Shown here: positions 8,381-12,207 of the stretch, one piece after another
Layout of the letters: each line of letters begins with the position of its first letter
Position numbering within the stretch: position 1 is the stretch's first letter
NCBI GenBank assembly: GCA_001189275.1
Contig: CP012158.1
Span: 1,789,704 to 1,853,703, forward strand
Origin: Pyrobaculum sp. WP30
Lineage (GTDB): Archaea > Thermoproteota > Thermoprotei > Thermoproteales > Thermoproteaceae
Direction of reading: 5' to 3'
Length of the DNA: 64,000 bases
The notes under the pieces: model-generated
What the model was told of the DNA's origin: nothing
What the model saw: only the letters and a program-made list of their open reading frames with translations
Databases searched by the model: none
Translations under genes and position numbers: made by a program

Positions 8381-8551
8381 ATGGAAGTTGACCCCGTATG
8401 TGGAATGGAGGTCAACCCCACCAAGGCTAAGTACAAAACGCTGTAGAGAGGCAAGGTCCACTACTTCTGTTCCCCCATGTGTAAGGAGTTCAAGAAGAAG
8501 CCTGAACACCACCTGCAACACGGGCCCCAGGACATGCCGCACCACCGCTGA
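8381..8551 (+). pseudogene. YHS-domain metal-binding protein with in-frame TAG
   Basis: The frame encodes a 56-codon YHS domain: DPVCGMEVNPTKAKYKTL, TAG at 8444-8446, then RGKVHYFCSPMCKEF and a His-rich tail. In intact homologues a tyrosine normally stands where the TAG is, so one TAC-to-TAG change explains it. YHS domains are associated with copper-transporting ATPases, and its final TGA overlaps the start of a P-type ATPase remnant. A promoter-like GATATTTAC lies 24 bp upstream of the ATG. It is most likely dead along with its neighbour; a sequencing error is possible. Confidence 0.75.
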
Positions 8552-8982
8552 TGGAGGTTAAGATAGGGGTTGGGGTAGGGGGGCGCGAGACCGTTTTGAA
8601 GAATTTGGGGATTCACTGCGCCACCTCTTCGTTGACTGTACAGACCTTCTTCGAAGCCTCAGCGGCCGTGATCACCTTCGTCCTAGCCGGTAGGTACGTG
8701 GAGGCCCGGATGAAGCTCAAGATGGGCGACGCCGTGAGGAAGCTGGCGCAGATGACCCCACCCAAGGCCCGGGCGAAGACAGGCGGCGGCTTCGCCGAGG
8801 TTGACTCGGCCCAGGTGGAGCCAGGCCAGCTGGTGGAGATGAGGAAGCTCTTCTACCCCGCCCTCTACCTCAAGCCGAAGCTCGCCGGGCTGGCCATGGC
8901 GCTAAACAGCATCACCGTCACGGCCAACGCCTTGAGACTTAGGAGGGCTTTGCCCTTGATCTTCCGCCCGCGGGTCTTTTAG
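8551..8982 (+). pseudogene. copA: Remnant of a copper-type P1B-ATPase
   Basis: Three parts of a heavy-metal P-type ATPase survive in one frame. An N-terminal heavy-metal domain piece (GIHCATSSLTVQ) has lost its second metal cysteine. A membrane and actuator piece follows (FFEASAAVITFVLAGRYVEA and GGFAEVDSAQVEPGQL). The last piece is a C-terminal helix (LAGLAMALNSITVTANALR). Everything between, including the DKTG phosphorylation site, the ATP-binding domain and the metal-site helices, is deleted. At 143 residues against the usual 700 or more, it cannot transport. Confidence 0.85.
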
Positions 8983-9631: not shown

Positions 9632-9970
9632 TCAGCAGACCTCCACCTCCGCGTCTATAAACCGCTTGTACCAGCCCAGGTACTGCTCAGGCCTCACAAT
9701 GTGAAGCTCCAGCAACGCCGCCGCCTCGCCGGCCGCCTCCCTGAGGGCCGCCGCCACCTTAGCCCTCTCCCAGGGGTCCTCAGGCGCGTTAGGCGAGATC
9801 ACAAGCACGTCTATGTCGCTGTCGGCAGACCAGTCCCCCCTCGCCACGCTACCAAACACCACCACCCTAACCTCCCCCAGCAACTCCCTAGCCCTCCGGC
9901 ACAGCCTCTCTACATACAGTCTCCACCTCTCCAGAACCTCCCTCCACCTAAGCCCCCGCTCTACGTACAT
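9632..9970 (-). CDS. MNT-type nucleotidyltransferase (HEPN/MNT antitoxin-like)
   Basis: A 112-residue minimal nucleotidyltransferase. The active-site signature is intact: VVFGSVARGDWSADSDIDVLVI (near residues 31-52), with GS, the two catalytic Asp residues and the hydrophobic strand. In HEPN/MNT modules this protein AMPylates and silences the HEPN RNase. The ATG at 9970 overlaps the TAG of the upstream HEPN gene (9961-9963), a typical coupled arrangement. Because the HEPN partner is frameshifted, this may be an orphan antitoxin. Confidence 0.85.
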   Translation of the reverse strand: MYVERGLRWREVLERWRLYVERLCRRARELLGEVRVVVFGSVARGDWSADSDIDVLVISPNAPEDPWERAKVAAALREAAGEAAALLELHIVRPEQYLGWYKRFIDAEVEVC

Positions 9971-10318
9971 AGCGCCACCAGCTCCTCCGCCACCTTGACC
10001 AGATGCTCCGTCACATCTCTGCTGTACCGCCGCGGCAGATACCGGGCCCCCAGGTAGGCATAACCTCAAAGGCGAACATGTACCTCTCGTAGAGACTCCA
10101 AAGCTCCGGCTTAACAGCCCTACCTCCTCAAAGAGCCGCCTCAGAGAATGCGTATGCGGGTAGTACCCCGCCCTAGACGCCAGCACGTATTTAAGCGCCA
10201 GCCGACACGCCTGCTCGGCGTGAAACGCCGCCTCCCTCCCAGCCCTCAAATCATCCCTAGCCGCCGCCAGAAACATCAACGCCCGTTCCCTCAGCATCTC
10301 CACCTCCTCCCTCCCCAC
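9961..10318 (-). pseudogene. HEPN-domain toxin gene, broken by two frameshifts
   Basis: The first part encodes a normal HEPN N-terminus (REEVEMLRERALMFL, EAAFHAEQACRLALKY, HTHSLRRLFEEVGLL). The similarity then continues in a second frame (KPELWSLYERYMFAFEV) and ends in a third (AYLGARYLPRRYSRDVTEHLVK). The RNase signature R-x4-H (RDVTEH) therefore survives in DNA but is out of frame. I chose GTG 10318 because TTTATATA lies 23 bp upstream; an ATG at 10336 sits almost on that box. Either the toxin is dead or there are two sequencing indels. Confidence 0.8.
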
Positions 10319-10372
10319 GACCCCACGCAAATCCATATATAAATGGACACCCCCGCAATCTGTTCGATACAC

Positions 10373-10654: not shown

Positions 10655-11125
10655 TTATCCTAAAAATTGCCTTATCGCCGCCGCAATTCGTTGTATGCAG
10701 TTCTCAAACTTAGAGTTGGCGTCGTTGTCTCTCTTCAATTCAGAGTAAAGGTAGTTGCAAGCATCTTTATGTTTAAGCTTGTCGCCTGGGTTGAGGCCTA
10801 ACCATTCGGCGAATGTCTCTATATGCGGATCGAAGACCACCGCGACGACTCCGGCGAGTTTGTTCACTCCTTGCCCAACCCAAACCTTTCCGCAGATCTG
10901 CGTCAGCCGAAAGTTCTTTTCCACCAAGATCCTCGCGTCGCCGGTCTCGTAATCTATAACCACGACGAGGCGGCTACACCGCGGCTTGATCTCCTTGACG
11001 ACGTTCCGCAATATGCGTTCGAGGCCATAATAGGGATTGTGGCGAACCTTGCCTCCCACCGCGTTTCTAAGGTATTCGCCGACGCATTCGTTGCCGTAGC
11101 ACTCCGCTACAATGCACGTCTGCAT
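10655..11125 (-). CDS. Small TOPRIM-like (DUF4276-like) partner of the OLD-type ATPase
   Basis: A 156-residue protein. The N-terminal strand reads CIVAECYGNECVGEYL, comparable to the VEG.TE..F start of DUF4276/TOPRIM-fold proteins. LVVVIDYETGDARIL supplies a possible metal-binding Asp strand, and VAVVFDPHIETFAEWLGL resembles the conserved E.W motif later in that family. The assignment is from motif shape only. It overlaps the ATPase gene by 19 bases and so is cotranslated with it. ATPase plus small TOPRIM pairs are common in anti-phage systems. The region is AT-richer than the flanks, which suggests transfer. Confidence 0.5.
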   Translation of the reverse strand: MQTCIVAECYGNECVGEYLRNAVGGKVRHNPYYGLERILRNVVKEIKPRCSRLVVVIDYETGDARILVEKNFRLTQICGKVWVGQGVNKLAGVVAVVFDPHIETFAEWLGLNPGDKLKHKDACNYLYSELKRDNDANSKFENCIQRIAAAIRQFLG

Positions 11126-12207
11126 AGACGAAGCACTTCGCGGGGCTTCATGAAGAGGATGTCCTCGGACGTGACCAACTCCTCCGCCAGCTTATCCTTG
11201 TCAAGCTCCGCAACCTCCGTAAGCCCCCCATCCCCCCTGTATACGTAATACAGCGTCACGTCTAGCCTATCCCTCAGCAGAGAGACCAGGATCGGGTTGT
11301 GTGTTGTAATTACCACATACCCCACTTCACTGAACTTTGCGATGTACTTCACCAAGAGGTTGAAGAACTGGGGGAAGAGCTGCCCCTCCGGCTCCTCTAG
11401 CAGTACAACTGTTCTTCCCTCTAGGCCGTGAAGCTTCGTGAAGAAGATCGCCGAAGAGAGGCCTACAAGGATGTACAAGATGCGAAACACCGAGTCGGAA
11501 ATGGCTGAGGGCTTCATGGCAATGTGGTTGTCAAACACCACAACTCTTCCATCGTCTAGCAACTTGACCTCTACCCGACTCAGCTCGGCCAATTCTGCGC
11601 TTACATCTCTGATAACCTCCAGCTGTTTCTTTGCCACAAGGCCGAAGTTTTTCCCATCTTCCCGCAAAAGATTCTGCGGAGCTTCAACTTCGACACCATT
11701 AACAATGCTTTTTATGACGTCGTCTTTAAATCTGTCAAATCCATAAAGTCTCGTTATAACATTCTCTCCGAGGACTCCAAGTAATTTGTCAACCTTATCT
11801 GGAACAATCCCGTACTCACTTCCACTATATGAGAACAGGTAGAGAGAGCGGATAGGAACTTTGGCATACCTCGTAATTGGTACCTCGGTGTCGTTGAGTT
11901 TGAGGCGGAGACCTTGTTGGAAGTATATACGTAGCGACCGGCGCCACTTATCAGTGTTTATACTAATTTCGATGGTCTTTGTCAAGTCATAAAACGTAAA
12001 AAGGTTGCTCACATCGTCGGTTCTGACGAGCCTAGACAGAGGCTCTCTGTCGACGTAGAACGCGTATCGGTCGAAGTAGGTTGCAAGCGCTATGGCTTCT
12101 AGCACGTTGGATTTGCCGGCGGCGGGCGACCCCAGCAGGACAGTGACCTTCCCCAGCTTCATTTGCGCCTTTTCTATTGACTTGTAGTGGCTTATGGAGA
12201 CCTCCAC
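11107..12207 (-). CDS. OLD/AAA_15-type ATPase, defence-like
   Basis: A 366-residue ABC-class ATPase of the OLD/AAA_15 group. The P-loop is GSPAAGKSN near residue 26 after an SMC-like strand (ISHYKSIEKAQMKLGKV). Walker B is VVLLEEPEGQLFP near residue 270, and the H-loop is VVITTHNPIL near 302. The middle (about 100-230) is helical and not recognised. It has no fused TOPRIM domain, unlike true OLD; the small downstream gene may supply it, as in two-gene ATPase/TOPRIM systems such as PARIS. GTG 12207 lies about 23 bp after TTTATAAG. Confidence 0.75.
   Translation of the reverse strand: MEVSISHYKSIEKAQMKLGKVTVLLGSPAAGKSNVLEAIALATYFDRYAFYVDREPLSRLVRTDDVSNLFTFYDLTKTIEISINTDKWRRSLRIYFQQGLRLKLNDTEVPITRYAKVPIRSLYLFSYSGSEYGIVPDKVDKLLGVLGENVITRLYGFDRFKDDVIKSIVNGVEVEAPQNLLREDGKNFGLVAKKQLEVIRDVSAELAELSRVEVKLLDDGRVVVFDNHIAMKPSAISDSVFRILYILVGLSSAIFFTKLHGLEGRTVVLLEEPEGQLFPQFFNLLVKYIAKFSEVGYVVITTHNPILVSLLRDRLDVTLYYVYRGDGGLTEVAELDKDKLAEELVTSEDILFMKPREVLRLCRRAL

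Follow-up and report, generated by a model that had tools for sequence, protein, structure and literature searches.

A two-gene locus on the minus strand of a 64-kb window of archaeal DNA from the Thermoproteota (the window being the whole stretch analysed here) encodes an ATPase of the OLD (AAA_15) class and, directly downstream of it, a small protein with TOPRIM-like features. On balance, we consider it likely that this locus is a minimal split OLD system, in which the ATPase would control a TOPRIM effector used in defence against viruses. The two-gene unit, its recurrence in other genomes, the class of the ATPase and the conservation of the motifs are established by sequence and profile comparisons. 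Here, we describe the locus and the two proteins, and then weigh the distribution and decay of the pair against other readings of its function and against the systems that it resembles.

The locus and its ATPase

Both reading frames were confirmed by an ORF check of the window (Table 1), and an earlier note on this DNA proves right in its coordinates, in the 156-residue size of the small protein and in the 19-base overlap of the two genes. It was also right that the module is richer in AT than its surroundings: its GC content is 50.4%, against 60.4% for the whole window, and 3% of the 1,553-bp windows within these 64 kb are equally AT-rich. The overlap suggests that translation of the ATPase and the small gene is coupled, and the TATA-like box ahead of the ATPase start, which is not obviously conserved in genome G069, is a putative leaderless bicistronic promoter. 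The host genome is a single 1.99-Mb contig in which no second copy of the pair was found, and neither a CRISPR array nor an Rfam RNA was found in the 64-kb window.

Upstream, the pair adjoins the housekeeping gene nnr (Carb_kinase and YjeF_N domains), present in 10 of 11 congeners, and downstream it is followed by a HEPN/MNT pair that had been described as broken. This description holds: in the window, the C-terminal half of HEPN continues in other frames and its N-terminus is fused to the MNT frame, whereas HEPN and MNT are two separate ORFs at the corresponding place in G069. The nnr flank may be a variable site in the genus. In G063, an apparent HEPN-type protein and a TnpB-like ORF were read from the sequence between nnr and thiD/thiN (L164:1579-3445). 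In the window itself, a short ORF (8551-8982) with a weak match to P-type ATPases (E 0.03) is possibly the remnant of a metal-transport ATPase.

Table 1. Features of the ATPase/small-protein locus and its immediate context, with positions in the 64-kb window
Feature	Position	Strand	Basis
OLD-type (AAA_15) ABC-class ATPase, 366 aa, GTG start, without TOPRIM domain	11107..12207	-	Pfam, model, fold match
Small TOPRIM-like protein, 156 aa, ATG start, proposed nuclease effector	10655..11125	-	Profile chain, AlphaFold2
Overlap of the ATPase and small-protein frames, 19 bp	11107..11125	-	ORF coordinates
TATA-like box CCTTTATAAG, ~20-25 bp upstream of the ATPase start, between that start and the upstream stop codon	12225..12234	-	Sequence read
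ATPase Walker A, GSPAAGKSN, residues 26-34	12106..12132	-	G26, G31, K32, N34 invariant in 19 homologues
ATPase Walker B, VVLLEEPE, residues 267-274	11386..11409	-	E271, E272, P273 invariant in 19 homologues
ATPase H-switch, TTHNP, residues 301-305	11293..11307	-	H303 invariant in 19 homologues
Small protein motif 1, VAECYGN, residues 6-12, end of strand 1; E8 is the proposed TOPRIM catalytic Glu	11090..11110	-	Alignment, model
Small protein motif 2, IDYETGDAR, residues 57-65, end of strand 3; D58xE60 replaces TOPRIM DxD	10931..10957	-	Alignment, model
Small protein motif 3, FDPHIE, residues 98-103	10817..10834	-	E103 aligns with a Glu conserved in distant partners (PxxExW)
Broken HEPN/MNT pair downstream of the module (context only)	9632..10372	-	HEPN E 1.6e-12, NTP_transf_2 E 1.8e-11

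The earlier assignment of the larger protein as an AAA_15/OLD-type ATPase without a TOPRIM domain of its own is borne out by a Pfam scan, in which it matches AAA_15 (E 7.3e-12, 46 bits, cut-off 32.1) and AAA_21 (E 1.4e-8, 35.6 bits, cut-off 27) and no TOPRIM domain is found. With scores above the Pfam gathering thresholds and with a Walker A motif, a Walker B motif and an H-switch, it belongs to the OLD/AAA_15 superfamily. The predicted structure (pLDDT 88) has the Thermus OLD protein 6p74 as its top fold match in the PDB (E 1.8e-13), other near folds being SMC heads, PtuA of retrons and Rad50, and the nearest PADLOC models are HEC-01A (E 4e-19), PDC-M07A, Old and AriA.

The small protein and its probable TOPRIM fold

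The small protein has no match in Pfam, DUF4276 included, and finds only single matches at chance level in PADLOC and NCBIfam; 'homing endonuclease' (PADLOC, E 0.0056) and MinC (NCBIfam, E 0.0045) were rejected as weak, isolated matches. A sequence search of the PDB with the small-protein profile likewise returned chance matches only. We consider it very probable all the same that the protein is homologous to TOPRIM, and the evidence for this fold is indirect, running through intermediate families. Profile comparison links the small-protein family of the window to ~160-aa distant partners, the small proteins found with related ATPases of Euryarchaeota, Chloroflexota, Bacteroidota and Methylococcales, with a probability of 91%, which reaches 95% with two extra Thermoproteota partners included. 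The distant partners in turn match the TOPRIM domains excised from archaeal OLD proteins of the fused type with a probability of 62% and with the motifs lined up, and some of them weakly match Pfam DUF3226 (E 3.6e-5) and OLD-like_TOPRIM (E 0.0015). Unrelated control profiles stay below 0.5%, and the direct comparison of the window family with OLD TOPRIM, at 0.5%, is not significant.

TOPRIM domains have an alpha/beta Rossmann-like fold with a glutamate at the end of strand 1 and a DxD motif at the end of strand 3. The AlphaFold2 model of the small protein, made from a 17-sequence alignment (pLDDT 95, pTM 0.90), consists in its first part of a strand (residues 3-7), a helix, a strand (26-29), a helix and a strand (52-58), so ordered that E8 follows strand 1 and D58xE60 follows strand 3; the residues thus stand at the TOPRIM positions, with DxE instead of DxD. 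Close homologues share the motifs AECYAN, HxxxxGRD, IDYExGxxRxY and VFDPxIEE, and in 11 of them I57, D58, E60 and R65 are invariant; the position aligned with E8 is occupied by K in two decayed copies, those of G067 and G218. In Foldseek searches of the model against the PDB and viral models, no match had an E-value below 0.001. The TOPRIM of an OLD protein (6nk8) ranks third in the PDB search at a non-significant E of 0.09, and among the 50 viral fold matches listed the top TMq (0.49, also not significant) belongs to an RloB-like protein of a virus. The top Foldseek matches, to SAHH and amidase folds, were rejected, their TM-scores lying below 0.4.

The profile chain through intermediates and the confident model, in which E8 and D58xE60 are placed as in TOPRIM domains, thus make a minimal TOPRIM nuclease the probable identity of the small protein. 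The motifs had been called TOPRIM/DUF4276-like in the earlier note: the first half of this label is supported by the intermediates and the model, which also speak against a fold unrelated to TOPRIM, and the second half falls, since DUF4276 gives no Pfam match and a profile comparison with DUF4276-type partners reaches only 0.1% (four such partners were compared).

Recurrence and decay of the pair, and exchange of its ATPase

A close relative of the ATPase is found at 14 loci in Thermoproteota, with the small gene or a remnant of it directly downstream in 12. The two genes adjoin in the same order in G069, G064, G005, G045 and G067, which were recovered from 81 genomes of the class in a search that began with the small protein and was repeated with the ATPase. 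An ATPase profile search of 398 Thermoproteota added G262, G195, G216, G359 and G135, again with the small gene directly downstream, and a Pyrolobus MAG (L075) has a shattered small gene behind the ATPase. Since the same two-gene order recurs across Thermoproteota, the pairing is not due to chance. Read from the other side, the small-protein profile matches 12 of the 398 genomes and 11 of these matches adjoin the ATPase, the exception being a frameshifted remnant without ATPase in G218; no intact homologue of the small protein without the ATPase was found in this search. That homologues might mostly occur without the ATPase, which would have spoken against a paired function, is therefore not the case. 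A direct pattern scan of the genome contigs with the small protein gave no relatives, and alignment A4 was too diverse for pattern scans. In G153 (L060:4707-5015), one deletion joins the two genes, so that the N-terminal end of the ATPase runs into the C-terminal end of the small protein.

Both genes are intact in G000, G064, G045, G195, G216 and G359. At eight loci (G069, G005, G067, G066, G077, G135, G262 and L075) the ATPase is intact and the small gene is broken or missing; the reverse state, an intact small gene without ATPase, was seen at no locus. When G066 and G077, which carry the ATPase only, and G067, where the partner has decayed, are counted as one event, the comparison is ~six against none (sign-test p roughly 0.03). 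G262 has a premature stop in the small gene, and its ATPase ORF would reach full length only from a start other than ATG, GTG or TTG. Faulty assembly may account for some of the small-gene breaks in MAGs. Sequencing error by itself explains neither the loss in G066, G067 and G077, whose genomes are single contigs, nor why breaks cluster in the shorter of the two genes. Programmed frameshifting was rejected because the break sites differ in G069, G005, G135 and L075 and six other loci read straight through. That the small gene is the part that breaks would follow if it encoded an effector that is costly when uncontrolled.

The same asymmetry would fit a toxin-antitoxin pair without a virus trigger, in which the TOPRIM protein is the toxin and the ATPase its neutraliser, and which persists as a selfish or element-stabilising unit: the intact small gene is never seen without the ATPase, the ATPase alone is common, and TOPRIM_OLD toxins are neutralised by AAA proteins in bacterial pairs arranged in this way (PMC10440598). 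The layout itself, however, does not imply toxin-antitoxin function, since in PARIS the removal of either gene is non-toxic (PMC9122126), and the ATPase-only copies still look selected. We therefore regard this explanation as unlikely, noting that toxin-antitoxin function and abortive defence are not mutually exclusive.

Selection on the ATPase bears on a further explanation, in which function resides mainly in the ATPase, acting alone, and the small TOPRIM protein is an accessory that is freely lost. In G066, G067 and G077, the ATPase has a dN/dS of 0.16-0.38, although part of this divergence may predate the loss of the partner; with values below 1 in copies that have no working partner, the ATPase may have a role of its own. 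A precedent is YbjD of E. coli, whose anti-phage phenotype requires the ATPase but not the Toprim domain (PMC13261556). We nevertheless think it quite improbable that the small protein is dispensable in this way, as six diverged lineages have kept its gene intact and its motif residues invariant, which would not happen to a gene without function. Moreover, the copies of G066, G067 and G077, where the partner is lost or decayed, form a single clade, and two of these genomes, G066 and G077, carry a second pair of ATPase and small protein nearby. G066 also has a further relative of the ATPase (L028:6091-7197) that lacks a recognisable Walker A motif and keeps the C-terminal half.

The pair is patchy within the genus, with the ATPase present in 5 of 11 genomes and absent from 6, and the ATPases of the window and G064 are about 40% identical, compared with about 85% for nnr of the same genomes. 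In the ATPase tree, G077, which belongs to another genus, groups with G066 and G067 at full support; monophyly of the ATPases of the genus is rejected (p about 2e-38), and a clade of the genus plus G077 is not (p 0.11). An exchange of the ATPase between genera is thus supported by these trees, because G077 nests among the ATPases of the genus and the genus as one clade is rejected. Patchiness, decay and such low identity between congeners are not the behaviour of an essential gene, and a housekeeping role in DNA processing, as in chromosome processing or the cell cycle, is for this reason very unlikely, even though the fold of the ATPase also resembles SMC and Rad50, and Cran1, the one OLD protein that has been studied in archaea, is a nickase that is essential and apparently plays no antiviral part (PMC12796447).

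Genomic context and relation to known systems

The case for a defence function of the pair is circumstantial, and draws in part on the neighbours of its relatives, for which the earlier note had proposed a survey: CRISPR arrays, HEPN/MNT genes, PIN-type genes and second ATPase pairs stand beside some of the copies. The CRISPR arrays lie about 1-4 kb from the ATPase in G066 (35 copies), G077 (8) and G067 (15), and these three CRISPR-side copies are the clade in which the small gene is broken or lost. In G066 and G077, the ATPase also adjoins a pair of another AAA_15 ATPase (~460 aa) and a 177-aa protein (L024:11480-13583 and L025:9418-11357), which may be a further split OLD pair; the 177-aa protein has no Pfam or PADLOC match. 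In G069, a second divergent ATPase (best PADLOC match AbiLi, E 8e-26) with a 197-aa DUF3226-like partner (L021:2441-4131) sits between the module and HEPN/MNT. PIN-type genes adjoin the copies of G005 and G135. Toxin-antitoxin neighbours are weak evidence for defence, because such genes are common in these archaea, and we give more weight to the CRISPR arrays and second ATPases.

The design with separate adjacent genes for ATPase and TOPRIM is, as had been noted, that of PARIS (AriA and AriB, class 4 OLD), in which the AriA ATPase and the AriB Toprim nuclease are both needed and AriB cuts tRNA (PMC9122126, PMC12409363). The window ATPase passes the thresholds used to detect PARIS (AAA_15 of at least 32 bits or AAA_21 of at least 27 bits; PMC9122126). 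For the partner, PARIS calls for DUF4435 of at least 27 bits, and eight family members show no DUF4435 match at E <= 0.5, which agrees with the earlier remark that the small protein is not an obvious AriB; AriB is also larger, with a residue R236 cited (PMC12409363), than the 156-aa protein. HEC-01, a PADLOC candidate composed of an AAA_15 protein (HEC-01A) and a DUF4276 protein (HEC-01B), has the same order of an OLD-type ATPase and a TOPRIM-like protein of ~180-200 aa, and among PADLOC models the window ATPase matches HEC-01A best; in contrast, neither the small protein nor the scanned members of its family match HEC-01B or DUF4276, although the HEC-01B models do recognise the partner in L128 (E 1e-45). 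In AbiL/RloAB and the TOPRIM_OLD:AAA pairs (PMC10440598), a small TOPRIM-type protein is likewise controlled by a separate AAA ATPase, but no RloB or AbiLii profile matches the small protein or the scanned family members. Fused OLD proteins (class 1-3, including GajA of Gabija) and Cran1 (class 5) share the ATPase fold, the TOPRIM superfamily and the motif order E, G(K/R), DxD/DxE, E, whereas the window system consists of two separate proteins with a minimal TOPRIM. Gabija (class 2 OLD) combines its fused protein with a UvrD-like helicase, and the neighbours of the unfused window pair are Nnr and HEPN/MNT, with no GajB helicase or retron adjoining; Cran1, with its fused TOPRIM, is conserved in its order and essential, unlike a pair that 6 of 11 congeners lack.

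As the small protein matches the partner of neither PARIS nor AbiL nor HEC-01, we regard the locus as a split OLD system whose minimal TOPRIM makes up a family of its own. The word 'unrecognised' in the earlier note thus fits the small-protein family, which has no Pfam or PADLOC model, and not for the split ATPase and TOPRIM design, already known from PARIS, AbiL/RloB and HEC-01. The family is unnamed in the sense that it lacks such a model, so that these loci are missed by current annotation, and a 2020 classification of ABC ATPases may already list such pairs.

In the mechanism that we favour for this split system, the OLD/AAA_15 ATPase would serve as a sensor-regulator that binds the small protein and holds its TOPRIM inactive. 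The small protein would be a stripped-down, metal-dependent TOPRIM nuclease built on E8, D58xE60 and probably E103. On sensing a virus or another invading element, the ATPase would activate or release the TOPRIM, which would then cut nucleic acid and stop the growth of the virus or of the host cell. Restraint by the ATPase, trigger, nucleic-acid target and defence are modelled here on PARIS, AbiL and Gabija. More tentatively, and we hold this to be rather doubtful, the locus might represent a defence family, so far unnamed, that occurs in hyperthermophilic archaea and has relatives in bacteria and Euryarchaeota. It would be one of the smallest split OLD systems, its TOPRIM nuclease of ~150 aa being autonomous and having a DxE rather than DxD metal site, and its ATPase being able to persist and act alone after loss of the nuclease. 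Were the ATPase to do so, sensing and killing would be separable.

Apart from CRISPR and restriction, the immunity of archaea has been charted poorly, and Cran1, the sole OLD protein studied in them, does not appear to act against viruses; a compact two-gene OLD/TOPRIM family that moves horizontally in Thermoproteota would offer a direct test of OLD-type defence in archaea. A thermostable 156-aa TOPRIM protein and its ATPase would also be a convenient pair for solving how a nuclease is restrained by an ATPase. Beyond Thermoproteota, ATPases with partners of ~135-195 aa form a large family in Euryarchaeota and bacteria; its scanned members have no significant Pfam or PADLOC model, and the loci assigned to it (L082, L086, L077, L089, L091, L137, L078-L081, L083 and L105) are marked by the motifs ECxxD, DEDP and LExW.
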